From positions 1 to 64,000 of the forward strand of contig NZ_MIAM01000063.1 of the NCBI RefSeq assembly GCF_001830555.1: 64,000 nucleotides of DNA, read 5' to 3'. Below, in pieces: positions 4,943-18,856 of this stretch. The stretch comes from Sphingopyxis sp. RIFCSPHIGHO2_12_FULL_65_19. GTDB taxonomy: Bacteria > Pseudomonadota > Alphaproteobacteria > Sphingomonadales > Sphingomonadaceae. The translations under genes and the position numbers were made by a program. The notes beneath the pieces are model-generated. The model was not told the DNA's origin. It saw nothing but the letters and a program-made list of their open reading frames with translations, and made no database searches. Numbering within the stretch: position 1 is the first letter of the stretch; the number at the start of each line of letters is the position of its first letter.

Positions 4943-4948
4943 AACTGG

Positions 4949-4975
4949 ACGGGCGGCGGCGCACCCGCCGCCCGT
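4949..4975 (+). terminator. GC-rich hairpin after parB-like gene
   Basis: acgggcggcg (4949-4958) pairs with cgccgcccgt (4966-4975), starting just after the parB-like stop. There is no T run, so termination would be weak or factor-assisted. Confidence 0.45.
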
Positions 4976-4987
4976 TCCGTCCCCCAT

Positions 4988-5035
4988 AAAATCGCCGCGC
5001 CGCTCGGCCGCAAGCGGCCCTCGCGGCGCGGATTT
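4988..5035 (+). promoter_or_regulatory. Two-tier leader hairpin before the 5053 gene
   Basis: The outer arms aaatc...cgcgccgc and gcggcgcg-gattt (4988-5003 and 5023-5035) enclose an inner ggccgc-aa-gcggcc stem. The structure ends 17 nt before the ATG at 5053, with aggaga between. Confidence 0.5.
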
Positions 5036-5052
5036 CAGACAGGAGACTTGTC

Positions 5053-5520
5053 ATGGCCGACCGTGTTTCGGCATCCATCACCATCGGCGGGACGCTCCCC
5101 GCCAGCCAGCTTCCCGCCTTCGCCGAGGCCATCGCGAACGAAGGGCTGTCCACCGAATGGGACGGCGAACCCTTCGCGCTCGGCGATCTGCCCGAGGGCG
5201 AGCCCTTGGCGCTCATGGCGCACGAGGTCGCCTGGGGGCGGTTCGAGGGACTCGAAGCCTTCTGCATCGCGCATGGGCTTTTCTTCGCGCGCTGGTCGGG
5301 CGCCTATGCCTGCCAGTGGGGTGCGGAACGCACCGTGTTCACCGGCAGCGGCGAACCGCAAAGCTACGCTGCCGACGAGGACGACTATATCCTCATGGGG
5401 CGCTGCACCGCCGAGCGATTGGGCAGCTATGCGGCGATCATCGCGCATTTCGATGCGGCCGACTTCGCGGTGCCCCCGCTTGTCATCACGCCCGAACGGG
5501 AGGAGGCGAGCAATGGCTGA
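5053..5520 (+). CDS. Conserved ICE protein of unknown function (155 aa)
   Basis: A 155-residue acidic soluble protein starting MADRVSASITIGGTLPASQLPAFAEAIANEGL. I do not recognise a named domain. The opening beta-strand/helix pattern (ITIGG...LPAFAEAI) and the repeated acidic stretches resemble other uncharacterised cargo carried with ArdC/DUF2958/ParB on sphingomonad elements. The aggagactt Shine-Dalgarno stretch fixes ATG 5053. Its last eight bases overlap the next gene, which suggests paired synthesis. The next protein starts with the same residues (MADxxxxxSF/IT), so the two may be diverged partners. Confidence 0.7.
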   Translation: MADRVSASITIGGTLPASQLPAFAEAIANEGLSTEWDGEPFALGDLPEGEPLALMAHEVAWGRFEGLEAFCIAHGLFFARWSGAYACQWGAERTVFTGSGEPQSYAADEDDYILMGRCTAERLGSYAAIIAHFDAADFAVPPLVITPEREEASNG

Positions 5521-6016
5521 CATCTGGATTCAGGGCAGCTTCGCCTTTCGCTGCACCGCCGCCGAGTGCGCGCTGATCGAGGAAGTCGCAAACGCTGGCT
5601 ACGCGCTAGCGAATGACGACGCGCCCGATCCGCCGAGCGCGGCGCTGCTCGCAGCCTTTCCGCCGGACGATGCGAACGCGCGGTGGAGCGGGTTTCGCGA
5701 GGCGTTCAACGATCCCGAATTTCCCACCATCGGAGCCGATTTCATCGCTGAAACCTGCCCCGACGATCCATCCGCGCGGATCGTGTGTTTCGCCAGCATG
5801 GACGATTTCGATGCCGCTGCCATCGCGGTGGTGATCCAGCGATGTTGCCCCGAAACGCTCGCCAAGGGGCCGATCGGCTTTGAATGGGCCATGACCTGTT
5901 CCAAGCCCCGCATCGGGGAGTTCGGTGGCGGCTGGTGCGCGATTTTCGCAGACCGCATCGAGATCGACGCGACCAACGAGGCGCTGTCGCGCGCGCTCGC
6001 GGGCGACGGCAACTAG
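5513..6016 (+). CDS. Conserved ICE protein of unknown function (167 aa)
   Basis: A 167-residue protein, MADIWIQGSFAFRCTAAECALIEEVANAGYAL, with an acidic middle (FPPDDANARWSGFREAFNDPEFP) and a tail GGGWCAIFADRIEIDATNEALSRAL. No domain recognised. It starts within the end of the preceding gene (8-nt overlap), so the track start at 5048 is only an open frame. Strand-exchange partners or regulators of the transfer module are possible, but nothing in the sequence proves a role. Confidence 0.7.
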   Translation: MADIWIQGSFAFRCTAAECALIEEVANAGYALANDDAPDPPSAALLAAFPPDDANARWSGFREAFNDPEFPTIGADFIAETCPDDPSARIVCFASMDDFDAAAIAVVIQRCCPETLAKGPIGFEWAMTCSKPRIGEFGGGWCAIFADRIEIDATNEALSRALAGDGN

Positions 6017-6069
6017 CCCAAATCGCGCCGCACTGCGCGCTCGCGTGCCGAAAACCCCTGCCGCCTGAC

Positions 6070-6297
6070 CTACCGGGCGGTGCGGCGGATCACCGTCCGG
6101 GCGCTTCCGCATAACGTGCATTCGTCCTTCTGCCGCTCGAATCCGCGCGTGCCGCCGAGCGCGCAGGTGACGACATTGGCCTGTGCGGTAACCGACAGGT
6201 TGAGCCGGTCAGTCACGCAGGCATCGCACACCGCCGCGCCGTCCAGCCGCACGATCAGCCGTTCGATCTGCCCCGCAATCGTCGTTCCTTCGTTCAT
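6070..6297 (-). CDS. Small Cys-rich (zinc-ribbon-like) protein
   Basis: A 75-residue minus-strand protein starting MNEGTTIAGQIERLIVRLDGAAVCDACVTDRL. Four cysteines are arranged as two pairs plus a single (CDAC, then C, then CTLC), as in a small zinc ribbon. The track start at 6339 is extended; ATG 6297 is preferred because a perfect hairpin (6315-6332) lies just upstream of it, as for neighbouring genes. It is convergent with the 5513 gene (53 bp apart). A regulatory or DNA-binding role is plausible but unproven. Confidence 0.6.
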   Translation of the reverse strand: MNEGTTIAGQIERLIVRLDGAAVCDACVTDRLNLSVTAQANVVTCALGGTRGFERQKDECTLCGSARTVIRRTAR

Positions 6298-6314
6298 CGC
6301 CGTGAGGCTATAGC

Positions 6315-6332
6315 CGCGGCCTCGTGGCCGCG
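6315..6332 (-). promoter_or_regulatory. Leader hairpin before minus-strand Cys-rich gene
   Basis: cgcggcc (6315-6321), loop tcgt, ggccgcg (6326-6332) is a perfect hairpin ending 17 nt before the minus-strand ATG at 6297. The rest of 6333-6610 holds no gene I can support; it is GC-rich with many spurious ORFs. Confidence 0.45.
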
Positions 6333-6616
6333 AAAGCAATCATGGCTTCCCGGAAAGACGCCGGACTGGGCTTCCTGTCCGCGCGCGCATCTCGTCCTTT
6401 CGTGTCTCACCAACCCGTCGCCGGCTCCTTGGGCGCATGACCTGGGACGGCCGCGCGCCTCGCGAAACCATCGCGCGGAACTGATTTCCCCGCGCCGCTT
6501 TGGCGGCGCTCCTCGCGGCCGCTTCGCTCCAAATCAGCCCCGCGCTTCCGGTCCTCCGCTTCGCTTCGGCCTGCGGTTCGCAGCGCGCTCAAGGGCCGTC
6601 CCTTCGGTCCGCCCAT

Positions 6617-6637
6617 CGCCCGGCATCGGGTCGGGCG
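6617..6637 (+). promoter_or_regulatory. Leader hairpin before DUF736 gene
   Basis: cgcccg (6617-6622) pairs with cgggcg (6632-6637), ending 20 nt before ATG 6658. The ribosome-binding aaggaga lies in between. Confidence 0.4.
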
Positions 6638-6657
6638 AATGTGCAAGGAGACGAGAA

Positions 6658-6978
6658 ATGCCCTCAATCGGTCATGTCCAGCGCCAGAACGACGGTTCGT
6701 TCCGGGGCGCCTTGAAGACGCTTTCGGTCAATGCCGAGATCGCCATCATCCCCAACCGCAGTAAGACCGGGGACCAGCCCGACTACCGCGTGCTGTCGAA
6801 CGGCGTCGAACTGGGCGGCGGCTGGATCCGCACCGGCGAGGTGAGCCAGCGCGAATATGTCCGCCTCGCCATGTCGGCCCCCGAACTTGGCGGCCGCACC
6901 CTCTACGCCAATCTCGGCCGCGCCGCCGGGCAGGACGACGACGACGCGTTCGCCGTTATCTGGAACCCCGGCGACTGA
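6658..6978 (+). CDS. DUF736 family protein
   Basis: A 106-residue DUF736 protein: MPSIGHVQRQNDGSFRGALKTLSVNAEIAIIPNRSKTGDQPDYRVLSNGVELGGGW, ending with AFAVIWNPGD. DUF736 genes are common on alphaproteobacterial plasmids and ICEs, usually near relaxase and antirestriction genes; no activity is established that I know of. The start is fixed by gcaaggagacgaga. A strong GC hairpin (6989-7014) follows at once and probably ends the transcript, so this is likely a single-gene unit. Confidence 0.88.
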   Translation: MPSIGHVQRQNDGSFRGALKTLSVNAEIAIIPNRSKTGDQPDYRVLSNGVELGGGWIRTGEVSQREYVRLAMSAPELGGRTLYANLGRAAGQDDDDAFAVIWNPGD

Positions 6979-6988
6979 GCCGGATCGG

Positions 6989-7020
6989 CCCCGCGCCGGT
7001 CACCCGGCGCGGGGCTTTCC
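6989..7020 (+). terminator. Intrinsic terminator after DUF736
   Basis: ccccgcgccgg (6989-6999) pairs perfectly with ccggcgcgggg (7004-7014) around tcac, followed by ctttcc. It starts 10 nt after the DUF736 stop. Confidence 0.75.
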
Positions 7021-7310
7021 TCATGCCTTGAGGGCTCGGCGTGGGCCTTTTCCTGCACCGGAACGCGCTTGCGGGCCTGCAGAGAGGAAGAAATCCGCTC
7101 AGCAAGCACCGAGTATCCGGCGGCGAACGGACCGCCTCAACCATCGACGGTTCCCCCAATTTTCACGCCACCTGCGTTCCGCTTCGCTCCACTCCGGCGA
7201 CGAGAAAATCGGCTCCCCCGTCGCCCGCTTCGCGGCCGCTGCGCGGTGGTTGACCCCGCCCGCTCCCCGCCGGGCGATGGCTCATCTTTCGCTTGTATCA
7301 GGAGGATGAG
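7021..7310. other. Gene-free spacer with leader hairpin before small ORF
   Basis: No gene supported between the DUF736 terminator and ATG 7311. The one clear structure is cgcccg (7257-7262) pairing with cgggcg (7271-7276). It ends 34 nt before the ATG of the small coiled-coil ORF, with caggagga in between. Confidence 0.45.
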
Positions 7311-7472
7311 ATGTCGGTTGAACAACAGATCGAGGAGCTTCGCGCGGAGCTTTCATGGTGCGATGACGCGGGAGAACGGCGGCAGATCGAAGCCGAATTA
7401 AGGGCCGCTGAGAAGAGGCTGAAGCGGTGCAATCGGGCGCTGCGTCAGGCCGAACAGGCAGGCTGGCAATAA
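7311..7472 (+). CDS. 53-aa coiled-coil small protein (below ORF-track cutoff)
   Basis: A 53-residue ORF missed by the track: MSVEQQIEELRAELSWCDD, then GERRQIEAELRAAEKRLKR, ending AEQAGWQ. It has an almost ideal Shine-Dalgarno (caggagga) seven bases before ATG and is followed 30 bp later by a textbook terminator, so it behaves as a real short transcript. The composition (Glu, Arg, Ala, Leu in heptad-like spacing) predicts two helices forming a coiled coil. It sits directly before the oriT-like region and relaxase; a transfer-accessory or regulatory role is an inference only. Confidence 0.65.
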   Translation: MSVEQQIEELRAELSWCDDAGERRQIEAELRAAEKRLKRCNRALRQAEQAGWQ

Positions 7473-7502
7473 GGCGATGCGCTGTTGAAGGGGCAGGTTC
7501 GC

Positions 7503-7537
7503 GGGAGTGGTGCCGCATGGCGCCGCTCCCCTTTTTT
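7503..7537 (+). terminator. Strong intrinsic terminator upstream of oriT-like region
   Basis: gggagtggtgcc (7503-7514) pairs over 12 bp (two G-T) with ggcgccgctccc (7519-7530) around gcat, followed by a C and six Ts. It isolates the small ORF from the relaxase region. Confidence 0.88.
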
Positions 7538-7599
7538 GATCGGGAAGGCGGGAAGGCAAAGCGGGCGTCTGGGGCGGCAGGTGGCAGTCGGGCTCGATG

Positions 7600-7760
7600 G
7601 CAAGATAGAGGCAAAATCTCGCGATTTTGTAAGTGTTTGTCTGCACATCGTTTTTTGAAGGCTTTTGCGAGACTCGCCCTTTGAGTGCGAGACAGGGTTA
7701 CCAGGAGTGGCGGTTTTCTGGGCTTTTCCGATCCCAATCGCGAGACTCCTTGCGCTCTGG
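7600..7760. other. Candidate oriT: hairpin plus GCGAGAC repeats
   Basis: This AT-richer stretch lies between a terminator and the relaxase gene, where oriT is normally found. It has a perfect hairpin caaaatc-tcgc-gattttg at 7612-7629 and three direct GCGAGAC copies at 7667-7673, 7687-7693 and 7740-7746. I could not identify a nic-site consensus with confidence, so the call rests on location and structure. Confidence 0.5.
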
Positions 7761-7818
7761 CGAGGACGCGCCATTCTTATCGGCGGGGAGCGTCATTCCG
7801 GCATGGAAGGACGCCGCT

Positions 7819-9783
7819 ATGCGCGATGATGAGTTCGAACCGCAGCTGGGCCGGATGCGCGGCCGGGGCAAGGAGCAGCGCTACCTGAGCCGCGTCGTGA
7901 AAGCGGCAAAGCGGGCCGGCATGAAAACGGGCAGGCGCGGCCGTTTCGACGGCAGCCGGATCGGGCGCGGCGCGAGTGTTGCGCGGGTGCTCAGATCGCG
8001 CGACCGATTGGGCGCGTTCCGGTCGCGCCGCGTGATCGTCAAGATACGGCCTGTCGGCCTTGGCGGGAAAGGCATGGGCGGTGCGAAGGCGCACCTTCGC
8101 TATATTCAGCGCGACGGCGTGACCCGTGAGGGCGAGGCTGGTGCGCTCTACTCGCCCGACAGCGACGTCGCCGATGGCAAGGCGTTCCTCGAACGGTGTG
8201 ACGGCGACCGCCGCCAGTTCCGGTTCATCGTGTCGGCCGAGGACGCCGACCAGTATCCCGACTTGAAGCCGTTCGTGCGCCGGCTGATGACGCAGATGGA
8301 GCAGGATCTTGGGACAAAGCTCGATTGGGTGGCGGTCGACCATTTCAATACCGGCCATCCGCACACGCATATCGTGGTGCGCGGCGTAAACGATCGGGGT
8401 GAGAATCTGCTGATCGCGCGCGAGTATATCTCGCACGGGAGCCGGCAGCGGGCGATCGAGATCGTCAACCTCGACCTGGGGCCGCGCACCGACCTTGAAA
8501 TCGAAGAGCGGCTTCGCAGCGATACGGGTGCCGAGCGGCTGACCGCGATCGACAGACGGCTGATCCGCGACATGGATACCGCGCGGCTGGTCAGCGCGAG
8601 CGATGGCGATCCCTTCCAGCAATCGCTTCGCGTCGGTCGCCTGCAGAAACTCGGGCGCATGGGACTCGCCTCGCATGTCGGCAACGGCACCTGGCGGCTT
8701 GAGCCCGACCTTGCGAACACACTGCGCCAGATCGGCGAGCGCGGCGACATCATCCGCACCATGCAGCGCGAGCTGACCGCGCGGAAGCTCGATCGTGCTG
8801 CGGTCGATCGCGTCATCTACGACCCGGTCGCGAAGGAGGCGACGCCGATCATCGGCCGCGTCGTGATGCGCGGGCTCGCCGACGAACATGAAGACCGTCA
8901 TTATCTGCTGGTCGACGGCATCGACGGGCGCACCCATTATGCCGAGATCGGCAAGGGCGAGCTGGTCGACACGATCCCCGAAAATGCCATCGTCCGGATC
9001 GCGCCACGCGAGGGCGGCATTCGCGCCGTCGATCGGACGATCGACGAGATCGCGGCGGCGAACGGCGGGCGCTATTCGATCGACGCCCATCTGAAGCACG
9101 ATCCGACCGCCAGCGAACGCTTCGCCGAAACGCATGTCCGGCGGCTTGAAGCGATGCGAAAAATCTCGGGCGTCGTCGAGCGCGAGCCCGACGGAAGCTG
9201 GATCATCGCGCCGGACCATCTCGCCAGGGTCGAGAGGTTCGAAGCCATGCAGTTCCGCGACCACCCCGTTGCCATTGAAACCCTGTCGGCGATCCCGCTC
9301 GACAAATTACCGGGAACCGATGCCGCGACCTGGCTCGATCGCGAGCTGGTCGCCGAAGCGCCGGTGCCAGTGCGCGATGCTGGGTTCGGGCACGAGGTTC
9401 GTTCAGCGCAGGCGATGCGACGGCAATGGCTGATCACCGAACAGCTTGCAGACGAACAGGATGGGCAGACGGTCTATCGGCGAGGGATGCTCGCCGCGCT
9501 CCAGCGGCGAGAATTGCTGCGTGTCGCCCGCCAGCTCTCCGACAAGTTAGGCGTTCCGTTCGCCGAGGCCAGAGAGGGGGAGGCTGTTCAAGGCAGGCTC
9601 GTGCGCGCAGTCGAGATGACGAGTGGTCGCCATGCGCTCATCGAACGGTCGCGCGATTTCACGCTGGTGCCGTGGCGCTCTGTTCTCGATCGCCATGTCG
9701 GTAAATCGGTCTCGGGCATCATGCGCGACGGCGGGATCAACTGGACACTCGGGCGGCAGCGCAGCGGGCCGAGCGTCTCCTGA
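7819..9783 (+). CDS. traI: Conjugative relaxase (MOBP/VirD2-TraI-like, DUF3363)
   Basis: The relaxase nicks oriT, stays covalently bound to the 5' end and leads the strand into the secretion channel. From ATG 7819 it is 654 aa. The relaxase fold is at the N-terminus: a conserved Tyr in AKAHLRYIQRDG (Y95, candidate nucleophile) and the metal-binding histidine cluster in VAVDHFNTGHPHTHIVVRG (H175, H180, H182, H184). The remainder matches the DUF3363 region (LVDGIDGRTHYAEIG, GGRYSIDAHL). The track start at 7633 would read through the oriT-like repeats, so I prefer 7819 with ggaagg upstream. It is followed by an RHH gene and by the cargo. Confidence 0.88.
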   Translation: MRDDEFEPQLGRMRGRGKEQRYLSRVVKAAKRAGMKTGRRGRFDGSRIGRGASVARVLRSRDRLGAFRSRRVIVKIRPVGLGGKGMGGAKAHLRYIQRDGVTREGEAGALYSPDSDVADGKAFLERCDGDRRQFRFIVSAEDADQYPDLKPFVRRLMTQMEQDLGTKLDWVAVDHFNTGHPHTHIVVRGVNDRGENLLIAREYISHGSRQRAIEIVNLDLGPRTDLEIEERLRSDTGAERLTAIDRRLIRDMDTARLVSASDGDPFQQSLRVGRLQKLGRMGLASHVGNGTWRLEPDLANTLRQIGERGDIIRTMQRELTARKLDRAAVDRVIYDPVAKEATPIIGRVVMRGLADEHEDRHYLLVDGIDGRTHYAEIGKGELVDTIPENAIVRIAPREGGIRAVDRTIDEIAAANGGRYSIDAHLKHDPTASERFAETHVRRLEAMRKISGVVEREPDGSWIIAPDHLARVERFEAMQFRDHPVAIETLSAIPLDKLPGTDAATWLDRELVAEAPVPVRDAGFGHEVRSAQAMRRQWLITEQLADEQDGQTVYRRGMLAALQRRELLRVARQLSDKLGVPFAEAREGEAVQGRLVRAVEMTSGRHALIERSRDFTLVPWRSVLDRHVGKSVSGIMRDGGINWTLGRQRSGPSVS

Positions 9784-9804
9784 TCCGGAGGATTCGGGCT
9801 TTCT

Positions 9805-9843
9805 ATTTTCATGAAATTATGTTTTCATGGATTCATGAAAAAT
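9805..9843. promoter_or_regulatory. TTCATGAA-type palindromic operator region
   Basis: TTTCATGAAA-like palindromes occur at 9805-9817 (attttcatgaaat) and 9831-9843 (attcatgaaaaat), with a third ttttcatgg between. The second overlaps ATG 9835. The arrangement fits autoregulation by the small RHH protein encoded here. Confidence 0.5.
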
Positions 9844-10035
9844 ATCGCAGCGCAAACCGATGTCGGCGACGAGCATCTTCAGGTGCAGATTCCTGCCGTT
9901 ACGAAACGCGATCTCGGTCAACGGTCGCTCGATTCCCGCGAGCCGATCCGGATGATCGTACTGCGGGCACTTGAAGCCTATGGCGTGAGCGTCCCCGCAG
10001 ACGCGATATCGGATCGCCGGAAGGGCAGGCGATGA
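9835..10035 (+). CDS. Small ribbon-helix-helix-like protein
   Basis: A 66-residue protein, MKNIAAQTDVGDEHLQVQIPAVTKRDLGQRSLDSREPIRMIVLRALEAYGV. One beta strand (LQVQIP) and two helices around a REPIR turn match the ribbon-helix-helix/CopG pattern, as in antitoxins and relaxosome accessory proteins. I chose the internal ATG 9835 over 9811 because the extra eight residues lie inside a repeated palindromic region. Its stop overlaps the next ATG (ATGA), linking it to the MazG-like gene. It could be a relaxosome component of traI or the regulator of the downstream cargo. Confidence 0.65.
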   Translation: MKNIAAQTDVGDEHLQVQIPAVTKRDLGQRSLDSREPIRMIVLRALEAYGVSVPADAISDRRKGRR

Positions 10036-11210
10036 GCGAGGATTTCGAAGCTCTCACTGTTGCGGATTATGCGAAGCAGGCCGCGCGGACTGATCAACGC
10101 AGCGGTGGCCGCGCACTGGGCTTCTCGATGCTTGGCCTTTTCGGCGAAGTCGGCAGCTTGCTCAGTGAGGCCAAGAAAAAGCAGCGCGACGATGCCTCCT
10201 ACCTGGGTTACGCTCACGCCGTCGCGGAAGAGCTTGGTGACGTCCTTTGGTATCTGGCGGCGATCGCACGGCGCAGCCGCATGGCGCTCAGCGACATCGC
10301 TGCCGCCGCGGCGACAAACGGCGGACAATGGCAGACGGGCGGCAACGAAACGCTCAGTTTCCATGCGCTGCAGCCGCAGCACATTCCGCTTGCCAAGGCA
10401 CCGATGCCGCAGTTCGAGCATAGCCTGCTCGCGCTGGCAGGCGACGTTGGGCTGCTCATCAACGATTTCCAGGCGGGCGGTCTTGCGAAGGACCGCGAAG
10501 CACTCGCGGGCCGGCTGGTCGCGGTCATGCGCCGGTTGATCCAGGCGGCAAACGAATCCGGTGTTACCATCGAGGCTGCCGCCGTGAAGAATCTTCACAA
10601 GATCTTCGATCGCTGGCCGCGCGAGCGCATCTATCCGGCGCCGACCGATGCGGCGCTCGACCCAGAAGAGCAATTGCCGCGGCGGATGGCGATCGACGTC
10701 TATGAACGCACCGTTCGCGGGCAGACATTCGTGTATCAACGCTCAAGCGGTGTGTATGTCGGCGACCGGCTCACCGACAACGCGCTCGAACCCGACGACT
10801 ATCGTTTCCACGATGTCTTTCACTACGCTTATGTCGCGGTGCTTGGCTGGTCGCCAGTGCTGCGTGCGCTGCTCCGTCTCAAGCGCAAGAGCGATCCGAA
10901 ACTCGACGACGCCGAAGACGGTGCTCGGGCGATTCTCATCGAAGAGGGCATAACTTCCTGGATTTTCGGACAAGCGCAGCAACTCCGGTACTTTGAAAAC
11001 GTGAAGCGCGGTGGCCTTCCGCTGGACATGCTGAAGCATGTCCGCCAGTTCGTCGCCGGCTACGAATCAGAACGCTGTCCGCTGTGGCTTTGGGAGGAAG
11101 CGATCCTCCAGGGCTATACGGCTTTCCGCTTCCTTCAGGAGCATCGGCGCGGCCGCGTCCTGATCGACTTCGCCAATCGCCGCCTGCGTATCAAGGAATT
11201 GCCGTCATGA
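10032..11210 (+). CDS. MazG-like nucleotide pyrophosphohydrolase with extra C-terminal domain
   Basis: A 392-residue protein. Residues about 10-80 carry an all-alpha NTP pyrophosphohydrolase signature: LGLFGEVGSLLSEAKKK with Glu pairs, then AVAEELGDVLWYLAAIA, which supplies the ExxD metal site. MazG-type enzymes hydrolyse (d)NTPs to monophosphates. Residues from about 215 form a second helical domain with a His-rich segment (YRFHDVFHYAYVAVLGW), LIEEGITSWIFGQA and an acidic/aromatic motif (CPLWLWEEAILQGYTAF); I believe this is the MazG C-terminal domain type but cannot verify. Start is coupled to the RHH gene, and its stop overlaps the UDG-like ATG. A nucleotide-pool role is known for the family; defence is inference. 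Confidence 0.75.
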   Translation: MSEDFEALTVADYAKQAARTDQRSGGRALGFSMLGLFGEVGSLLSEAKKKQRDDASYLGYAHAVAEELGDVLWYLAAIARRSRMALSDIAAAAATNGGQWQTGGNETLSFHALQPQHIPLAKAPMPQFEHSLLALAGDVGLLINDFQAGGLAKDREALAGRLVAVMRRLIQAANESGVTIEAAAVKNLHKIFDRWPRERIYPAPTDAALDPEEQLPRRMAIDVYERTVRGQTFVYQRSSGVYVGDRLTDNALEPDDYRFHDVFHYAYVAVLGWSPVLRALLRLKRKSDPKLDDAEDGARAILIEEGITSWIFGQAQQLRYFENVKRGGLPLDMLKHVRQFVAGYESERCPLWLWEEAILQGYTAFRFLQEHRRGRVLIDFANRRLRIKELPS

Positions 11211-11911
11211 CCCCGAAATCCTTTGTGTCCACCCTGGCGGCGACCGAACTTCCCTCAGTGTTCAATCCCTGGCGCGATCGCTGCACGGTCCATGACCGCA
11301 GCGACGCCGCCGCCCGGCGCCGCGACAATCTCGAAATGCTGCTCACCGCGGCGCTTGATCATCGCGTCGAAACGATCTGGATCGCGCGTGATCTCGGCTA
11401 TCGCGGGGGGCGGCGTACGGGCGTACCGCTGACCGACGAAATTCACCTCGGACATGCCGGCACGCTGATGGGCGGCATCGCATTTGAACGTGCGACGCAG
11501 GGACCCGCCGTGGCGGAGCGCACCGCGGCGATCGTCTGGCGTGTGCTAGAGCGGATCGGTCAGCCTGTCATGCTCTGGAACGTTTTCCCGTTCCATCCCC
11601 ATGAAGCGGATGATCCGATGTCGAACCGATGCCACACGCGAAGCGAGCGCGAGGCGACCTGGCCGATATTGCAAGCCCTCGTGTCAATGATCCGGCCCCG
11701 CCAGATCGTCGCGATCGGGCGCGACGCTCACCTGGCGCTGGACGGTCTCGACATTCCGACCACCGCGGTCCGCCATCCGAGCTACGGCGGGCAGCGCGAG
11801 TTCATCGAGGGCATGTTCAGCCTGTACGGTGTCGCGGATGACAACGATGAGCCGCTAGAACTGCCGTTGGGCGCGCCTCACGCCGCAGCACGGAGATGTG
11901 CGCTCGCCTGA
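11207..11911 (+). CDS. Uracil-DNA glycosylase superfamily protein
   Basis: A 234-residue protein resembling the UDG superfamily, which removes uracil or modified bases from DNA. Visible motifs are WIARDLGYRGGRRTGVPLTDE (motif-I-like, following the hydrophobic strand VETIWIA), LWNVFPFHPH (Asn strand), VAIGRDAH and the motif-II-like VRHPSYGGQ. It is the distal gene of the RHH-MazG-UDG unit (ATGA overlap with the MazG gene). Its last 34 bp overlap the 3' end of the convergent thymidylate-synthase-like gene. A role acting on phage DNA containing modified uracil would fit the neighbourhood but is not shown. Confidence 0.72.
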   Translation: MTPKSFVSTLAATELPSVFNPWRDRCTVHDRSDAAARRRDNLEMLLTAALDHRVETIWIARDLGYRGGRRTGVPLTDEIHLGHAGTLMGGIAFERATQGPAVAERTAAIVWRVLERIGQPVMLWNVFPFHPHEADDPMSNRCHTRSEREATWPILQALVSMIRPRQIVAIGRDAHLALDGLDIPTTAVRHPSYGGQREFIEGMFSLYGVADDNDEPLELPLGAPHAAARRCALA

Positions 11912-12657
11912 TCGCAGCGTTCAAAGAGTTGCTTAAGATCGCCGCGGTTCCAGTTGGCGGTGTCGACCGTGGCGTTGGTCGAGACGATCGTGAGCGGACC
12001 CAGCGCGACCCCGCCTTCCTTGGCGATGAATTCGAGCAGACGGCCGAGGCCGATCAGATTGCCGAGCAGTTTTTCGATATAGTAGTGATTGCGGTAGAGC
12101 GCGGTCATGCCGAGGCGACGATCGTCGCCCTTGCCGATCAGCTTGAGACTGGCAAAGCTCAGGCACTGACCGCCGTAGGGCGAGTCATTCACGTCGCGGG
12201 CGGGGTCGAAGATCAGCAGTTCGAATTTGTTGAGCGCTCGGACGTTCGGGTTGCGCAGGCGCTCGACGATGCCCCAGATTTGATTGATTGGCTGGCCGTC
12301 GGCGCGGGGCAATTCCATCATCCGTTCGAAATAATAGCCCGACCAAGCGCCCGACCTCCGGACCTTCGGCAGCACGTTGTCGCGAAACCGGTCGAAGAAT
12401 TGCGGCGCGCCGTAGCGCCTGTACAGCGCTGCCGGAAAAATCGTGTTGGCGACCGTCTCGATGGGCTTCTTGCCATGGCCCGAAAGGAAGGCATCGACTT
12501 CCGCCACGACGGGATCGGCGAGTGTTGCGCGCGCAGTCGGCTCGGCCACGGAGATGACGACATTCTGCGCCTGGTGTCCGGTGGCGAGGTCGACGAGCCG
12601 GACCGCCTCGCGCCAGCCAGCAACGCAGTCAGGCTGCGGCGGTATGGGAAGATACAT
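11878..12657 (-). CDS. Diverged thymidylate synthase-like protein
   Basis: A 259-residue protein, the normal length for ThyA. Alignment by eye against E. coli ThyA from memory pairs INQIWGIVERLRNPNVRALNKFELLIF with the DQI...L region, the Cys of GGQCLSFASLKL (C165) with the catalytic Cys, and R189 and N200 of YRNHYYIEKLLGN with the conserved Arg and Asn at the same 11-residue spacing. The His-x-Tyr pair of the dUMP site is replaced by STNATVD, and Asp of the RSxD motif is lost, so substrate or activity has probably changed (a hydroxymethylase-like, binding-only or effector role is possible). Start ATG 12657 overlaps the upstream protease gene by 29 bp. It is the last gene of the five-gene operon. 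Confidence 0.72.
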   Translation of the reverse strand: MYLPIPPQPDCVAGWREAVRLVDLATGHQAQNVVISVAEPTARATLADPVVAEVDAFLSGHGKKPIETVANTIFPAALYRRYGAPQFFDRFRDNVLPKVRRSGAWSGYYFERMMELPRADGQPINQIWGIVERLRNPNVRALNKFELLIFDPARDVNDSPYGGQCLSFASLKLIGKGDDRRLGMTALYRNHYYIEKLLGNLIGLGRLLEFIAKEGGVALGPLTIVSTNATVDTANWNRGDLKQLFERCDQASAHLRAAA

Positions 12658-13309
12658 CGACTTCCTCCGTCAAATTTGCCGTGGCGAAAAGGCGCGGCGC
12701 TAGAAAGCGCTCAGTAAGCCAGGCGTGGCCTTCCAAGCCCCAACCTGGTCCCCAGCTGTTGCGGATGAGAATGGCCGGGGTGCCGTCCACGGTTCCATGC
12801 CCGACCGCGACGACCGCGTGCCGTTGCGCTGGCTCGGGGAGTTCGTCGTTCGCCGGATCGACGACGCCATCACCGCGCGGCTGGAAGAAAGACCGTGACA
12901 GCATCGTCAGCATGAGCACCGGCGTGTCACGATCCAGCGCGGCAAGGATGGATGACAGGTCGGTTCCATCCCTCTGTCCGTTGCGGCCATAGAGCGGGCC
13001 AACGGTCGCCGGCGGCGTCCACAGTCGATGATCGGCTGGAACCGCTGCCAGATACGGCCAGCCTTTCTCGTCGGGTTGGCCATCGAGCCGTAGCGCGTCC
13101 AGCATTGTGGATAGCAGTGCGCCGCTCGTCGGCGGTCTGCCCGCCCGTTTCTGCGCGGCATAAAAGGCGAATTCACACGACAGCGGTGCCCAGCCGTCGC
13201 GAAGCCCGGCGTGGGTGTCGCTCGCGGCGAATGCGAGGCATGTCGGCCGCGCGCCTTGATCGCGCGCAGGCCCGAACAGCGGCCGAAGGTCACGGACGAT
13301 ATCGATCAT
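12629..13309 (-). CDS. Papain-like C1 cysteine protease
   Basis: A 226-residue protease with all papain-family landmarks: oxyanion Gln18 in ARDQGARPTC, catalytic Cys24 in PTCLAFAASDTH, His164 in QRHAVVAVGHG, and Asn184 in IRNSWGPGWGLEGHAWL. There is no propeptide of the usual eukaryotic length and no clear signal peptide, so it is probably cytoplasmic and must be kept in check by something else. The gene immediately upstream encodes a protein with a chagasin-like domain, the natural inhibitor fold of papain-type enzymes. It is spaced 6 bp from that gene and overlaps the TS-like gene downstream. Confidence 0.88.
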   Translation of the reverse strand: MIDIVRDLRPLFGPARDQGARPTCLAFAASDTHAGLRDGWAPLSCEFAFYAAQKRAGRPPTSGALLSTMLDALRLDGQPDEKGWPYLAAVPADHRLWTPPATVGPLYGRNGQRDGTDLSSILAALDRDTPVLMLTMLSRSFFQPRGDGVVDPANDELPEPAQRHAVVAVGHGTVDGTPAILIRNSWGPGWGLEGHAWLTERFLAPRLFATANLTEEVDVSSHTAAA

Positions 13310-13315
13310 GGGGCG

Positions 13316-14326
13316 TCAGGCGGCCTCGAGCAGGTGCCGCCGTTCGGCGCGCGACAGGCCCGTCTGTTCCGGGCCGGTGAGGTCGAAATCGAGCGTCAGG
13401 CTGGTGAGGGCCGGCGCAGGCTGCCACGGCCGCCGCTCGTCGAGCGACATGCGGCCGCGCCGCGGCGCATCGGGCGCCGCGGTGACACGGCGGACAACGG
13501 GACCACCGATGCCATCGCCGTCGATTGCCTCACGCTCGTCTCGAACGACGGCGAAGCCGCTGGCGATCAGTTGGTCGAGATCCCAGAGATACCCACCGCC
13601 GCTATGTTCTTCGAGCTGCAGCACGAAAAGATCATTGCGACTGCCATCGATCCGCGAGCCGGCATCGCGCTCGGTCAGCAGCCAGACGTCGCCGCGATAG
13701 TTGTCGGGCCGATAGTCCTTGAGGAGATCGACCTTCAGGCTGCGCGGCTGCGTCCGGAGCAGGTCGGTCATCACCGATGGCGAAATCAGATTGTAGCGAA
13801 CCAGGGTGCGGCACGTCGCCTCATAGCTGGCGCCGATCCGCAGCGAGAGCTGATAGACGACATTGGGGCGCCGGAAATGATCGATCTGCCATCCTTGTCG
13901 CGCGCTGTGCGCGAGCACCAGCCATTTCGGCATCATGAAGGCGATCGCAAAGGCGTCGGCTTCGGTTTCCTCGAAGTTGTTTCCCGGTTCGGGCGACATC
14001 GGCATCCGGCGCAGGATGCTCTCATCGTCGAGGCTCGGCTCGTGTCGCATCGAAAAATGCCCGAGTTCGTGCGCGGCCGTGAAGCGCTGGATGCTCATCG
14101 GTCGTTCCGTCGTGACGAGAACGCCAGGAGCAGGTGCGCTGAGATAGGCGCCGAGCAGGCCTTTCAGAGGACGAAGCAGCAAGGGTAGACCCACGGCATG
14201 GATCGCGCCGAAGACATCGACGCTGCCGCCTTGGGTCTCGATCAGTGCGCGCGTATCGAGTTCGCGATGCAGGCGGCCCGCTGCCATCGTACCAGCGCGA
14301 ACCGCGCTCGCATAATCCGACGCCAT
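13316..14326 (-). CDS. ImmA/IrrE metallopeptidase fused to a chagasin-like (I42) inhibitor domain
   Basis: A 336-residue fusion. The N-terminal half is an ImmA/IrrE-type zinc peptidase: RFTAAHELGHFSMRH (HELGH at 86-90) and the third-ligand segment FEETEADAFAIAFMMP. Residues about 220-320 show the three loops of chagasin-type cysteine-protease inhibitors: SGGGYLW (242-248, cf. NPTTGYxW), GDGIGG (270-275, cf. GxGG) and ERRPWQP (297-303, cf. RPW), then a terminal strand LTSLTLDFDL. Three bp downstream of the XRE gene, its likely substrate; 6 bp upstream of the papain-like protease, its likely inhibition target. The family calls are pattern-based; the functional pairing is inference. Confidence 0.82.
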   Translation of the reverse strand: MASDYASAVRAGTMAAGRLHRELDTRALIETQGGSVDVFGAIHAVGLPLLLRPLKGLLGAYLSAPAPGVLVTTERPMSIQRFTAAHELGHFSMRHEPSLDDESILRRMPMSPEPGNNFEETEADAFAIAFMMPKWLVLAHSARQGWQIDHFRRPNVVYQLSLRIGASYEATCRTLVRYNLISPSVMTDLLRTQPRSLKVDLLKDYRPDNYRGDVWLLTERDAGSRIDGSRNDLFVLQLEEHSGGGYLWDLDQLIASGFAVVRDEREAIDGDGIGGPVVRRVTAAPDAPRRGRMSLDERRPWQPAPALTSLTLDFDLTGPEQTGLSRAERRHLLEAA

Positions 14327-14329
14327 CGA

Positions 14330-14704
14330 TCAGCTCCGTTCGCCGCCAGACCGCGAGCGGAGATATTCGGCAAACCGGCTCAGCTCGGCCCGGTCCTCAG
14401 TCGACAAGGCCGCAACGCGTCGCGCCAGATGGGCGACATCGGCGGGAAGGCTCGCGGAGGCCTCGTCTTCGCCGGTAAAATAGGCCACCGACTGGCGGTA
14501 AAGACGGGCAAGCCGCGTCAGTTCGATCGCTTCAACGCGGCGCTGGCCATTCTCGATATCGGTAAGCGCGGTCCGGGGAATCTTGAGATAGGCAGCAACT
14601 TCTTCCTGCTTGAGGCCGAGATATTTCCGTGCTTCGCGCAGACGGTCGCCCAAGCGCCGCCGCTCCTGCTCGTCGCCTTCCTGGCGGAGTGCGAGATTGG
14701 TCAT
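14330..14704 (-). CDS. XRE-family transcriptional regulator
   Basis: A 124-residue repressor-type protein. The helix-turn-helix is at residues about 18-73: LGDRLREARKYLGLKQEEVAAYLKIPRTALTDIENGQRRVEAIELTRLARLY. The short C-terminal tail is helical. XRE plus ImmA/IrrE pairs usually form a switch in which the peptidase cleaves or antagonises the repressor after a stress signal. Its start overlaps the ACP-like stop (ATGA at 14701-14704) and its stop is 3 bp before the ImmA gene. A palindrome in the promoter region (15062-15082) is a plausible binding site. Confidence 0.88.
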   Translation of the reverse strand: MTNLALRQEGDEQERRRLGDRLREARKYLGLKQEEVAAYLKIPRTALTDIENGQRRVEAIELTRLARLYRQSVAYFTGEDEASASLPADVAHLARRVAALSTEDRAELSRFAEYLRSRSGGERS

Positions 14705-15039
14705 GGCTTCGACCCTTTCTTCTTAACCCAGACGCGTTCGATCTTAGGGAGGAGGTCGTCAATCGCCTTCTCGATCGAATTGTAGCCGCCGGTGCGGACG
14801 ATGCTGTCGCGAAGCTCGATGTCGAGGACCTGCTCCACCGCGCAAAGCGTGTCGACCACGGACAAGGAGTCGAGTGGCACGGGCGCCTGGATGATCTTCG
14901 GGTTTTCCGGAGGCAGGGCAATTCCGCGCACCTGTGCCTCAGCCCTGGCCACTTGCAGCAGTTCGTCGACCAACGCCCTAATGGCGTCGGCTTTGGGAAA
15001 CGCGGTTGCCGCGGGCTGCGGAGGAGCGATTGTCGCCAT
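14701..15039 (-). CDS. Acyl carrier protein-like small protein
   Basis: A 112-residue protein from ATG 15039 (gaggc upstream); GTG at 15060 is the longer alternative. The C-terminal half looks like an acyl carrier protein: PVPLDSLSVVDTLCAVEQVLDIEL, with the phosphopantetheine-site triplet DSL (Ser58), then YNSIEKAIDDLL for helix IV. The first 50 residues form an extra helical, Ala-rich extension. It is the first gene of the XRE-ImmA-protease-TS operon. No acyltransferase, ligase or PPTase is nearby, so whether Ser58 is loaded is unknown. A Phyre/HMM check would settle the fold. Confidence 0.6.
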   Translation of the reverse strand: MATIAPPQPAATAFPKADAIRALVDELLQVARAEAQVRGIALPPENPKIIQAPVPLDSLSVVDTLCAVEQVLDIELRDSIVRTGGYNSIEKAIDDLLPKIERVWVKKKGSKP

Positions 15040-15381
15040 GCATGCCTCGCACGATTTCACTACATTAAATGCGATATAATGTCTGATAATCCGACACGCA
15101 AGCCCGAATTTGCAGCTCGGATTTTTGCAGGGTGTAGCGGGTCATCGGCGGTGCGGTGTGGTGGTCAGTGCCACCTCGAGGGACAACGACAGGGCAGAAT
15201 CATCAACTCGGGTCATAGCTCGATCAAAAGAACAGAGCTGGAATATTGAGTCAGTCGCCGACGAGTGATCTCCTTCGGTCACCCACCAGCCCCCAGCGGC
15301 TCCGTTCATTTCGGGCGGCCCATAGCCGAGTCTTGAAGCCGCGCCCCGACCGCATCCGGCGGTATGGGCGGGAGCTTCAAC
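15040..15381. other. Divergent intergenic region between cargo operon and traG
   Basis: This region separates the minus-strand cargo operon from traG. Its AT-rich left part carries the palindrome at 15062-15082 and a TATAAT at 15075-15080. The part from about 15140 to 15360 has no ORF I can support. The 756-aa minus ORF reading from traG is an antisense shadow. Confidence 0.5.
15062..15082. promoter_or_regulatory. Putative XRE operator / promoter of the cargo operon
   Basis: acatta (15062-15067) and taatgt (15077-15082) are inverted repeats around a 9-bp spacer, in an AT-rich stretch 23 bp upstream of ATG 15039. Repressors of XRE/ImmA pairs commonly bind such sites to autoregulate. Confidence 0.45.
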
Positions 15382-17409
15382 GTGACCCCGACCAAATTGC
15401 TCATCGGCCAGATCCTTGTCGTGTTCGCAATCGTGATCGCGGGCCTCTGGGCGGCGACCCAATGGGCGGCGGCGATGCTCGCCTACCAGCCCGAACTTGG
15501 TCCGGCCTGGTTCATGGCTGGAAGCACGCCGGTCTATCGTCCCTGGGCGCTCTTCCCCTGGTGGTATCACTACGATGCCTATGCGCCGCATGTTTTCGAC
15601 AAGGCCGGCGCGCTCGCCGGCGCGAGCGGTTTCATCGGCTGCGGCGCGGCGATCGCAGGCTCGCTCTGGCGCGCGCGGCAGTCGCGTCACGTCACCACCT
15701 ATGGTTCGGCGCGCTGGGCCAGGCCGAACGAGATCGAGCGGGCCGGCCTTTACGGTGATGCCGGCGTATTCCTGGGCCGCTCGCGCGGCCGCTATCTCCG
15801 GCATGACGGCCCCGAACATATCATGGCGTTCGCGCCAACCCGTTCGGGCAAGGGCGTCGGGCTGGTCATACCGACACTGCTTGGCTGGACCGGCAGCGCC
15901 GTGGTTCACGACATCAAGGGCGAGAACTGGCAGCTCACCGCCGGCTGGCGCGCGCGCTTCTCCCACGTCCTGCTGTTCAATCCGACCGATCCCGCTTCCG
16001 CCAAATACAACCCGCTGCTGGAGGTCCGGCGCGGCGAGCATGAGGTCCGCGACGTCCAGAACATCGCCGACATCCTGGTCGATCCCGAAGGCGCGCTCGA
16101 ACGGCGCAACCACTGGGAGAAAACCTCCCATTCGCTCCTGGTCGGCGCGATCCTCCACGTCCTTTATGCGGAGGAAGAAAAGACGCTCGCACGGGTAGCC
16201 ACATTCCTGTCGGACCCGCAGCGGCCGTTCACCGCCACGCTCCGGCGGATGATGACCACCAATCACCTCGGCACGAAGGATGCGCCGCAGATCCATCCCG
16301 TCGTCGCCTCGGCGGCGCGCGAGGTGCTCAACAAGAGCGAGAACGAGCGCAGCGGCGTCCTCTCCACCGCAATGTCGTTTCTCGGGCTCTATCGCGACCC
16401 GACCGTCGCCGCGGTGACATCGCGCTGCGACTGGCGGATCGCCGATCTCGTCGAGGCCGGCCATCCGGTCTCGCTCTACCTTGTCATCCCGCCATCGGAC
16501 ATCAGCCGCACCAAGCCGCTGGTGCGGTTGGTGCTCAACCAGATCGGCCGCCGCCTCACCGAAAAGCTCGATGCCGATCCCGCCAGGGCGGGCAAGCACA
16601 AGCTCCTGATGATGCTCGACGAGTTCCCGGCATTGGGGCGGCTCGACTTCTTCGAGACCAGTCTTGCCTTTCTCGCGGGCTATGGAGTGCGCGCCTTCCT
16701 GATCGCGCAGTCCTTGAACCAGATCGAGAAGGCTTATGGCGAGCACAACTCGATCCTCGACAACTGCCATGTCCGCGTCGCGTTTGCGACCAACGACGAG
16801 CGCACGGCGCGGCGGATTTCGGACGCGCTCGGCATCGCCACCGAACAGCGCGCGATGCGCAACTATGCCGGCCACCGGCTCGCGCCCTGGCTGGCGCACG
16901 TCATGGTCAGCCGGCAGGAGACCGCCCGGCCACTCCTGACCACCGGCGAGGTGATGCAGCTCCCGCCCAAGGATGAGCTTGTCCTTGTCTCCGGCATGGC
17001 CCCGATCCGCGCGAGGAAGCTGCGCTATTACGAGGACCGCAATTTCCGCGAGCGGATCGCACCGCCGCCGCAGCCCGCGCCCGGAGACTATCCCGACCGG
17101 CCGCAGGCACGCCCCAACGACTGGAGCGGACTGGTCCGCGCGCCCGATACCCGGCTCGGCAAGCCCGATGACGATGCGAAGGCGGATGAGGACGGCGGCT
17201 TGCAACAGCAGCGCCACCCCGGCCTCGGCGAAGAACCCGCCAAAAAACCCGAGCCGCCAAAGCAGCTCGACCTGCTCGGCCTGGACAGCGACGACACCGA
17301 CACGATCGCCGACAAGCACGCGATGGACCGCGCCGGCGCCACCGGCACGCTGATCCGCGCTCACGCGATCAATCAGGGTCGCAGCGCCGACATGCTGCCG
17401 GACTTCTGA
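15382..17409 (+). CDS. traG: Type IV coupling protein (VirD4/TraG)
   Basis: The coupling ATPase that recruits the relaxase-DNA complex to the channel. 675 aa from GTG 15382, chosen because ggag lies 7 nt upstream and homologues begin near TPTKLLIGQ; ATG 15364 gives six more residues. Two N-terminal membrane segments (ILVVFAIVIAGLWAATQW and ALAGASGFIGCGAAIAGSLW) precede the Walker A motif MAFAPTRSGKGVGLVIPTLL (about residues 150-165) and Walker B KLLMMLDEFPALGRLDFF. The C-terminal 100 residues are charged and Pro/Asp-rich. It begins the traG-trb transfer operon; the next gene starts 2 bp later. Confidence 0.93.
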   Translation: MTPTKLLIGQILVVFAIVIAGLWAATQWAAAMLAYQPELGPAWFMAGSTPVYRPWALFPWWYHYDAYAPHVFDKAGALAGASGFIGCGAAIAGSLWRARQSRHVTTYGSARWARPNEIERAGLYGDAGVFLGRSRGRYLRHDGPEHIMAFAPTRSGKGVGLVIPTLLGWTGSAVVHDIKGENWQLTAGWRARFSHVLLFNPTDPASAKYNPLLEVRRGEHEVRDVQNIADILVDPEGALERRNHWEKTSHSLLVGAILHVLYAEEEKTLARVATFLSDPQRPFTATLRRMMTTNHLGTKDAPQIHPVVASAAREVLNKSENERSGVLSTAMSFLGLYRDPTVAAVTSRCDWRIADLVEAGHPVSLYLVIPPSDISRTKPLVRLVLNQIGRRLTEKLDADPARAGKHKLLMMLDEFPALGRLDFFETSLAFLAGYGVRAFLIAQSLNQIEKAYGEHNSILDNCHVRVAFATNDERTARRISDALGIATEQRAMRNYAGHRLAPWLAHVMVSRQETARPLLTTGEVMQLPPKDELVLVSGMAPIRARKLRYYEDRNFRERIAPPPQPAPGDYPDRPQARPNDWSGLVRAPDTRLGKPDDDAKADEDGGLQQQRHPGLGEEPAKKPEPPKQLDLLGLDSDDTDTIADKHAMDRAGATGTLIRAHAINQGRSADMLPDF

Positions 17410-17411
17410 CA

Positions 17412-17837
17412 ATGGCCGCGATCAAACCCAACCGCGTCCGCTACCAGCTCTTCCTGCCCGAAGATCTGAGCCACCGCTTCGAGGCGCTGGCGAGCCAGCC
17501 CGGCGCGTCCAAATCGGCGATCCTCACCGACGCGCTCACCGCCTGGCTCAACCGGCAGGCGGCGAGCGAGCTGGAGAACAAGTTCAGCCAGCGGCTCGAT
17601 CGCATGTCGCTCGCGCTGGGGCGTGTCGAGCGTGACGGGCATGTGCTGCTCGAGAGCCTGGCGCTGTTCATCCGCTATGAACTGATGGTGCAGGCCCCTT
17701 TGGCCGAAGCCGACGAAGCGGCGCGTGCGATCGGCCGAGACCGCTTCGAGGCGTTCATTGCCCGCGTCGGCGAAGCGCTCGCCAGCGGCCAGCGCACGCT
17801 TGCTGCCTCCGCGAAAGACAATGGAGGTGGGCGATGA
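17412..17837 (+). CDS. CopG-type ribbon-helix-helix protein of the trb cluster
   Basis: A 141-residue protein beginning MAAIKPNRVRYQLFLPEDLSHRFEALASQPGASKSAILTDALTAWLNRQ, an RHH/CopG DNA-binding pattern, followed by a helical C-terminal region with ELENKFSQRLDRMSLALGRVERD. In Tn4371-type elements a CopG-like gene lies between traG and trbB; a regulatory or relaxosome role is inferred from that place. It starts 2 bp after traG and its stop overlaps the trbB start (ATGA at 17834). Confidence 0.82.
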   Translation: MAAIKPNRVRYQLFLPEDLSHRFEALASQPGASKSAILTDALTAWLNRQAASELENKFSQRLDRMSLALGRVERDGHVLLESLALFIRYELMVQAPLAEADEAARAIGRDRFEAFIARVGEALASGQRTLAASAKDNGGGR

Positions 17838-18856
17838 GCGACACGCTTTTCGGCTCCGATAATTCCGCAGGGCGTCGGCGCGCGATGCTGCGCACCGCGA
17901 TGGGGCCGACCATCGCCGCAGCGCTGGCCGATCCGGTGGTCATCGAGATCATGGTGAACCCGGACGGCGTGTTGCGCCTTGATCGACTCGGCGAAGGCCG
18001 GATCGATACCGGCACCAAATATGAGCCCGCGCAGGTCGAGCGGATCATCCGCCTGGTTGCCAGCCACGCACGGACAGAGGTTCATGGCAATGCGCCGATC
18101 GTGTCAGCCGAGCTGCCACCGCACGGCGAAGGCGCGGGCGAGCGGTTCGAGGGTATCCTGCCGCCGGTCAGCCTCGCGCCGTGCTTCTCGATCCGCAAGC
18201 CCGCGGCGCGCATCTACACTTTGCTCGACTATGTGCGGGACGGCATCATGCTCGCCGACACGGCGCGACTGCTGTCGATGGCCGTGGTCGAGCGCAAGAA
18301 CATCCTGGTCGCGGGTGGCACCAGTTCGGGCAAGACGACGCTTGCCAACGCGCTGCTCGCCGAGATGGCGCACCTCGATGAACGCGTCATCATCATTGAA
18401 GACACGCGTGAGTTGCAATGCGCCGCGCCCGACGTGGTGGGGCTGCGCACGCGTACGATTGGCACTGCCGGAGCCGGCGGCGTCACGATGGCTGATCTTG
18501 TCCGCTCGACATTGCGGCTCCGCCCCGATCGCATCGTCGTTGGCGAGGTGCGCGGGCGCGAAGCGCTCGACATGCTCAAAGCCTGGAACACCGGGCATCC
18601 GGGCGGCATCGCAACCGTCCACGCCAATTCGGCAGTGTCGGCGCTCTACCGGCTCGAGCAGCTCGTGCAGGAAAGCGTCGTCACCGTTCCGCGCCGGCTG
18701 ATCGCCGACGCCATCGACATGATCGTGTTCATCGCCGGGCGCGGCCTCGCGCGCCGCGTCGACACGATCGCGCGCGTCGCCGGCCTCGATCCCGACGGCG
18801 GCTACGCCGTCCTCGACCTTACTCCCGACCACGCCCTCGAACCCCAAGGAGAATGA
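17834..18856 (+). CDS. trbB: Conjugative transfer ATPase TrbB (VirB11-like)
   Basis: The hexameric VirB11-type ATPase that powers pilus biogenesis and substrate transfer, at the inner face of the inner membrane. 340 aa with the N-terminal domain (PVVIEIMVNPDGVLRLDRLGEG), Walker A ILVAGGTSSGKTTLAN (161-168), the Asp box IIIEDTRELQC, Walker B RPDRIVVGEVRG and the His box GGIATVHANS. It overlaps the CopG gene and trbC by 4 bp each (ATGA), so it is strongly coupled. Full length, no defects seen. Confidence 0.95.
   Translation: MSDTLFGSDNSAGRRRAMLRTAMGPTIAAALADPVVIEIMVNPDGVLRLDRLGEGRIDTGTKYEPAQVERIIRLVASHARTEVHGNAPIVSAELPPHGEGAGERFEGILPPVSLAPCFSIRKPAARIYTLLDYVRDGIMLADTARLLSMAVVERKNILVAGGTSSGKTTLANALLAEMAHLDERVIIIEDTRELQCAAPDVVGLRTRTIGTAGAGGVTMADLVRSTLRLRPDRIVVGEVRGREALDMLKAWNTGHPGGIATVHANSAVSALYRLEQLVQESVVTVPRRLIADAIDMIVFIAGRGLARRVDTIARVAGLDPDGGYAVLDLTPDHALEPQGE

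Follow-up and report, generated by a model that had tools for sequence, protein, structure and literature searches.

What does a ThyA homolog with an altered nucleotide site do in a regulatory operon? The question is raised by a gene on the minus strand of the 64,000-nt stretch of Sphingopyxis DNA analyzed here (the window), for which the initial annotation proposed binding or modification of a nonstandard pyrimidine nucleotide or, alternatively, sensing of a dUMP/dTMP pool altered by phages.

11878..12657, minus strand: thymidylate synthase (TS)-like protein, 259 aa, ATG start

The TS-Like Protein Is Predicted to Adopt the Thymidylate Synthase Fold

The proposed homology to ThyA was borne out by profile searches and by structure prediction. 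In NCBIfam the protein matches TIGR03283 (archaeal-type thymidylate synthase) with E=4.3e-10, at 39.5 bits against a cut-off of 174.55, and it has no match in Pfam (including PF00303), PHROGs, or PADLOC. A PDB search with the single sequence returned chance matches only; a profile of 65 family sequences ranked TS chains best, with the expected register at the catalytic region, at weak E values of 0.06–0.1. An hhalign comparison of the family with a single ThyA sequence also gave the correct register, at a probability of 3.5% that is not significant. The AlphaFold model (pLDDT 94, pTM 0.93) places only TS-superfamily structures at the top of a Foldseek search (E 1.3e-9), and VIA-align yields Z values of about 14–17.2 against TS-superfamily entries, in the order phage dCMP hydroxylase 9iqu (17.2), MilA 5b6e (17.1), 9iqc (17.1), and ThyA (about 14.9). 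The structure comparison suggested with the initial annotation thus finds a ThyA-like fold, and the model indicates that the TS-like protein has the thymidylate synthase fold. By this measure, the dCMP hydroxylase and the CMP hydroxymethylase MilA are structurally closer to the model than ThyA. By its title, entry 9iqc is a monooxygenase in the presence of dCMP and FAD, and the TS fold thus apparently has a known case of chemistry that does not use folate.

The gene is under purifying selection (dN/dS about 0.10–0.17, where dS is not saturated). A normal full-length ThyA is encoded on another contig of the host (G000:C11, E 2e-102), which argues that the TS-like protein is not the host's dTMP enzyme. 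A search of 50,697 phage genomes found no relative of the TS-like protein, and IMG/VR contains only two, so its identification as a phage gene was rejected.

The Nucleotide Site Is Altered around a Conserved Cysteine

Active-site conservation was counted in an alignment of 65 diverse relatives. The catalytic cysteine, C165, is present in all 65; R189, the counterpart of the phosphate-binding arginine of ThyA (E. coli R166), is present in 59, and N200, the counterpart of the uracil-reading asparagine (N177), in 64. The arginine-to-asparagine spacing is 11, as in ThyA; thus, the Cys, Arg, and Asn spacing noted initially is retained, and the three residues lie in register with those of the wider TS superfamily, represented by ThyA (PF00303), TIGR03283, MilA, and the phage dCMP hydroxylase (9iqu/9iqc), which share the same fold. 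R189 is missing from a protease-less HTH–ImmA–TS–HMUDK subfamily (YATQQ).

Unlike ThyA, however, the TS-like protein lacks the H-x-Y pair, the folate-binding aspartate, and the ThyA C-terminal end, and it sits in an operon with a protease and an acyl carrier protein (ACP)-like gene. Compared with the host's own ThyA, the window copy reads YRNHYY instead of QRSxD and STNATVD instead of GDxHLY. The first of these confirms the reported change in the Arg-Ser-x-Asp motif, and at the position of the folate-binding aspartate the relatives carry Tyr or Phe in 48 cases and Asp in 5. The reported replacement of the His-x-Tyr pair holds for the window copy, where the site is N228-A-T, and the tyrosine is lost family-wide, but the histidine, a deoxyribose contact, is kept in 49 of the 65 relatives (STHAxxD). 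Asparagine takes its place in the window copy and in a single further sequence of the alignment; the loss of the histidine is local. ThyA also uses a pair of arginines contributed by its partner subunit, and the TS-like family has not conserved this pair.

The RSxD motif also takes an R-S-H-N form in another TS-like family, composed of proteins of about 500 aa (L131–L147), so the change in this motif alone marks no new function. In these proteins the R-S-H-N TS-like domain follows an N-terminal half (MFEPLYYQDKLQIVNP...) of no assigned family; the type is frequent within a single family of the phylum and represents another TS-like branch. The f47 genome matches L131–L147 (E about 1e-15) were excluded as members of the present family because they form this separate family.

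These features bear on the possible substrate. The loss of R189 in the HMUDK-linked subfamily, together with the lack of conservation of the other-subunit arginines, means that the substrate need not be dUMP. In T4 hydroxymethylase an aspartate replaces the uracil-reading asparagine, for cytosine; the corresponding mark of dCMP/CMP hydroxymethylases, a residue other than asparagine at this position, is not seen at N200. The TS-like protein may plausibly bind a uracil-type nucleotide, because this asparagine is kept, because the neighbors are MazG and UDG or HMUDK_hel, and because some loci also have dCTP deaminase and dTMP kinase genes. The invariance of the cysteine favors catalysis over pure sensing.

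The TS-Like Gene Is One Part of a Seven-Gene Module

The TS-like gene is one part of a conserved seven-gene package. It is the last gene of an operon of adjoining or overlapping genes on the minus strand, in the order ACP-like, Xre repressor, ImmA/IrrE, papain protease, and TS-like, with a 29-nt overlap between the protease and TS-like genes, and this operon converges on the UDG and MazG genes.

10032..11210, plus strand: MazG nucleotide pyrophosphohydrolase with MazG_C (PF18722), by Pfam
11207..11911, plus strand: UDG-superfamily glycosylase, convergent with the TS-like gene (PF03167, 27.1 vs. 24.3 bits)
12629..13309, minus strand: C1 (papain/cathepsin) cysteine protease (PF00112, 39.7 bits vs. 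a cut-off of 20.7)
13316..14326, minus strand: ImmA/IrrE (M78) metallopeptidase with a C-terminal chagasin-type (I42) domain, CapP-like by PADLOC profile
13406..13639, minus strand: chagasin/I42 domain, residues 230–307 of the ImmA protein, with GGGYLW and RRPW motifs
14330..14704, minus strand: Xre-type HTH repressor, CapH-like by PADLOC profile
14701..15060, minus strand: ACP-like protein with an Asp-Ser attachment motif (D64-S65, numbered in the 119-aa ORF)
15080..15096, minus strand: 17-bp palindromic candidate operator (TGTCGGATTATCAGACA, also given as TGTCnGAnnnTCnGACA), in the promoter before the ACP gene

Partner genes at the loci of relatives were found with profiles built from the window's own genes. 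All six partners are present at 81 of 116 such loci, and many of the remaining loci are short or lie at contig ends. The protease neighbor persists down to 38–42% TS-like identity, also in Burkholderia and Haloarcula. The operon encodes an Xre repressor and an ImmA/IrrE protein and has a candidate operator in its promoter, in agreement with the regulatory operon of the initial annotation. The initial reading of the TS fold, the altered nucleotide site, and the regulatory setting stands, but it missed the larger unit formed with the ACP, ImmA-chagasin, papain, UDG, and MazG genes. None of the libraries searched names the module. Pfam and PADLOC profiles found no CD-NTase or CBASS effector among its genes, and CBASS was rejected as its identity since the operon has no cyclase.

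Two chromosomal operons (L122:9386–12028 and L123:8277–10556, minus strand) consist of MazG, TS-like, and UDG genes without ACP, HTH, ImmA, or protease, and possibly represent a minimal core of the system.

The Module Travels on Plasmids and ICE-Like Elements

Both Alpha- and Betaproteobacteria have conserved the module, which plasmids or ICE-like elements often carry, and it is found on named plasmids of Sphingomonas, Sinorhizobium, Rhizobium, Bradyrhizobium, Sulfitobacter, Acuticoccus, and Burkholderia. In Haloarcula the operon from ACP to TS is present and UDG is absent, and Streptomyces and Nostoc carry a protease-less version. In the window the module sits between relaxase and TraG genes, and the 16.7 kb around it (3857–20669) are 99.98% identical in Sphingopyxis, Aurantiacibacter, Sphingobium, Novosphingobium, and others. 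Such identity across several genera indicates that this conjugative element has spread recently.

Several observations concern the neighborhoods. The Hankyongella copy (L037) has breaks in its ImmA, C1, and other ORFs. Defense genes are occasional neighbors, with GajA-like matches in 3 of 94 flanking ORFs, a weak signal counted without a control set. Nucleotidyltransferase-HEPN fusions recur beside the module at four loci (among them L034:8908–9888 and L119:298–1428). In the protease-plus-HMUDK variant, a 184-aa ORF of no known family (L126:10044–10598) lies between TS-like and dCTP deaminase-like genes.

The Operon Carries a CapH/CapP-Like Repressor–Protease Switch

The candidate operator overlaps a −35-like TTGCGT (15096–15101) and precedes a −10-like TATATC (15073–15078), the two hexamers, chosen by eye, being separated by a 17-bp spacer. 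With at most one mismatch, the operator is found in 36 of 53 upstream regions compared with 0 of 1,060 shuffles. The window contains a single exact site, and a scan of the window found no operator before the UDG and MazG genes. At the same place, two protease-less loci (L030, L124) have a different palindrome, GGTAAGATTWTCTTACA. The operon is apparently autoregulated.

The repressor's partner would be the ImmA/IrrE metallopeptidase, in which HELGH is present in 67 of 67 relatives. Adjacent genes for an Xre repressor and an ImmA/IrrE protease, with an operator in the promoter, are also the arrangement of CapH/CapP of CBASS and ImmR/ImmA of ICEs. Cleavage of the repressor CapH by CapP is triggered by ssDNA (PMC10904395), and by analogy the same trigger would likely act on the ImmA/Xre pair of this module. 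In contrast to CapH/CapP, the metallopeptidase here has a chagasin domain, and the genes after it encode a papain protease and the TS-like protein, with no CD-NTase or CBASS effector.

A Chagasin-Type Domain Accompanies the Papain-Like Protease

The protease has the hallmarks of its family: Q18, C24, H164, and N184 are invariant in 69 of 69 distinct relatives, and its profile matches cathepsin-type proteases down to E 1e-21. The chagasin domain of the window copy scores 24.4 bits against Pfam I42, just under the cut-off of 27.2, and the Bradyrhizobium copy is annotated as "protease inhibitor I42 family protein" in its plasmid record. Among 76 distinct ImmA C termini encoded beside a C1 gene, 65 contain both the GYxW and RPW motifs and 10 contain one, the exception being the broken L037 ORF; the GYxW motif is in none of the nine ImmA C termini without a C1 gene. 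As judged by these motifs, the chagasin domain is confined to loci that encode the C1 protease.

ICP, of the chagasin family, is described as a tight inhibitor of C1 peptidases (PMC2680270). This activity and the co-occurrence of the motifs lend moderate support to the view that the chagasin domain holds the neighboring papain protease in check. The pair resembles the trypanosome ICP/C1 papain pairs in comprising the same two families, with GYxW and RPW motifs and a complete protease active site. It differs in that the inhibitor is fused to a metallopeptidase within a prokaryotic transcriptional switch and its presumed target is encoded adjacent to it.

A Carrier Protein and Nucleotide Enzymes Complete the Module

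The real start of the ACP-like protein is probably the ATG at 15039, which has a GAGG ribosome site just upstream. Its Asp-Ser motif is present in 60 of 60 distinct relatives. The window protein has no Pfam match of its own, and its Streptomyces homolog matches PF00550 (PP-binding). By eye, the HMUDK-linked subfamily has a diverged ACP relative at the same place, with the serine kept, and holo-ACP synthase or PPTase genes lie near several loci.

The UDG ORF opens at 11084, with its conserved part starting at 11207. Its signature motifs, RDLGYRGGRRTG, WNxFPxHP, and RHPSYGG, are invariant in 53 of 53 sequences, and its profile gives a weak match to TM0511 in the PDB. Across 64 diverse loci, 47 have UDG without HMUDK_hel and 13 have HMUDK_hel without UDG; no locus combines the two, and both are missing from 4. 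Of these four, L075 and L110 are on short contigs, whereas in L122 and L123 a MazG–TS operon is followed by the gene for another protein, identified by Pfam in L122 as a different UDG. This mutual exclusion indicates one slot filled by alternative enzymes. The low-confidence model of HMUDK_hel (pLDDT 62) best matches the phage PaMx11 5-PmdU glycinyltransferase (Z 10.1), followed by HhH DNA glycosylases, which fits a job shared by UDG and HMUDK_hel on 5-substituted deoxyuridine in DNA, as far as such a model can suggest.

Other nucleotide enzymes recur nearby, namely dCTP deaminase (nine loci) and dTMP kinase (four loci). In addition, seven loci (L025:8885–11059, L100:10789–13020, and five others) encode near the module a metallophosphoesterase, about 740 aa long, whose C-terminal region is TS-like (PF00303, E 2e-4, below the cut-off), and a further PF00303-type protein is also near in L025, L089, and L116.

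A Proposed Mechanism and Its Alternatives

Our preferred reading, which we hold tentatively, assigns the handling of nucleotides to the TS-like protein within an inducible conflict module of seven genes that is carried on mobile elements and is probably directed against phages. The module is probably a phage-defense or nucleotide-modification system not described in the literature covered. The analysis establishes its gene order, the motifs, the palindrome in the promoter, the two patterns of co-occurrence, and the fold of the TS-like protein, and from these we infer nucleotide chemistry, phage defense, induction by cleavage, and protease inhibition.

The repressor would hold the operon through the palindrome until an infection or DNA-damage signal activates the ImmA-type protease and the repressor is cut, as in CapP/CapH. 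As long as the metallopeptidase is not engaged, the chagasin domain on the same protein would restrain the papain protease. These three steps are moderately supported; those that follow are hypotheses. C165 of the TS-like protein may attack C6 of a deoxyuridine-type nucleotide, with C5 receiving something other than a folate-derived methyl, perhaps from the ACP arm. MazG, with dCTP deaminase and dTMP kinase where present, would shape the dUTP/dUMP pool, and UDG or HMUDK_hel would act on the resulting or target base in DNA.

It is possible, if doubtful, that the TS-like protein no longer catalyzes a reaction and is instead a sensor, a role that the initial annotation had also envisaged. Its ligand would be dUMP, dTMP, or a nucleotide altered by a phage, and its signal would go to the ImmA-chagasin protein and the papain protease, with papain as the effector. 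The overlap with the protease gene and the position of the TS-like gene in the regulatory operon, not with MazG and UDG, are consistent with such a role, as are the altered cofactor and sugar contacts. However, a pure sensor would not need the catalytic cysteine that every aligned relative keeps, and in L122 and L123 the TS-like gene accompanies MazG and UDG alone, with no HTH, ImmA, or protease.

The frequent position of the module among conjugation genes speaks against the defense reading, since the module could serve the element's own maintenance, and so does the scarcity of defense genes around it. Further points against the preferred reading are the low confidence of the HMUDK_hel model, the lack of an operator before the UDG and MazG genes of the window, the window ACP's lack of a Pfam match, and the arginine losses that leave the substrate free to be something other than dUMP. 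Phages mark their own DNA with 5-hydroxymethyl-dU derivatives, and the module might likewise modify thymine or uracil in the DNA of its own element to counter restriction on transfer. The conjugative plasmids and ICE-like elements that often carry it, its place between relaxase and TraG in the window, the resemblance of HMUDK_hel, in a low-confidence model, to a phage thymine hypermodification transferase, and the dTMP kinase and dCTP deaminase genes near some loci all agree with this. Nevertheless, we consider it unlikely: the glycosylase at most loci is of the base-removing UDG superfamily, no module protein resembles a sequence-specific DNA modifier, and the protease and its inhibitor are left unexplained.

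A more elaborate version of the preferred conflict-module reading, which we regard as quite improbable, would have an acyl or aminoacyl group pass from the ACP arm to C5 of dUMP and thence into replicating phage DNA, which the glycosylase (UDG or HMUDK_hel) destroys; the ImmA switch would induce the system upon infection, and papain, freed from chagasin, would be a trigger or second effector. We know of no example of a TS fold with a carrier-protein-bound donor. Finally, that the protein is an ordinary second thymidylate synthase making dTMP, as the shared fold and the kept Cys, Arg, and Asn might suggest, is very improbable and was rejected in view of the host's full-length ThyA and the active-site changes (the missing H-x-Y tyrosine, folate-binding aspartate, and C-terminal end), to which the lack of a PF00303 match, the TIGR03283 score below cut-off, and the linkage to protease, glycosylase, and ACP at most loci can be added.

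Relation to Known Systems and Significance

The conflict module we favor is assembled from parts of known kinds: a CapH/CapP switch, a TS-superfamily protein, and nucleotide-centered defense. The DefensePredictor study lends outside support to the defense reading: anti-phage systems of E. coli that it validated by experiment include TS and 5-hmdU kinase domains, and its predicted defense systems include MazG, MazG-C, and UDG (PMC13092281). In the text covered, these systems share TS, 5-hmdU kinase, dNMP kinase, MazG, MazG-C, and UDG domains with the module loci but, unlike the module, are described without ACP, ImmA-chagasin, or papain, and partial overlap is possible (PMC13092281). Brig1 is a DNA glycosylase serving antiviral defense (PMC11078745); the window UDG would be set apart from it by its own signature motifs and its place within a seven-gene block.

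If the module works as a unit, it would combine three features that are undescribed in the literature covered by our limited search. A repressor-cleaving metallopeptidase would carry an inhibitor of the papain protease of its own operon, a carrier protein would take part in a nucleotide-centered conflict system, and a glycosylase would be tied to a protein of the TS fold whose nucleotide site has been rebuilt.
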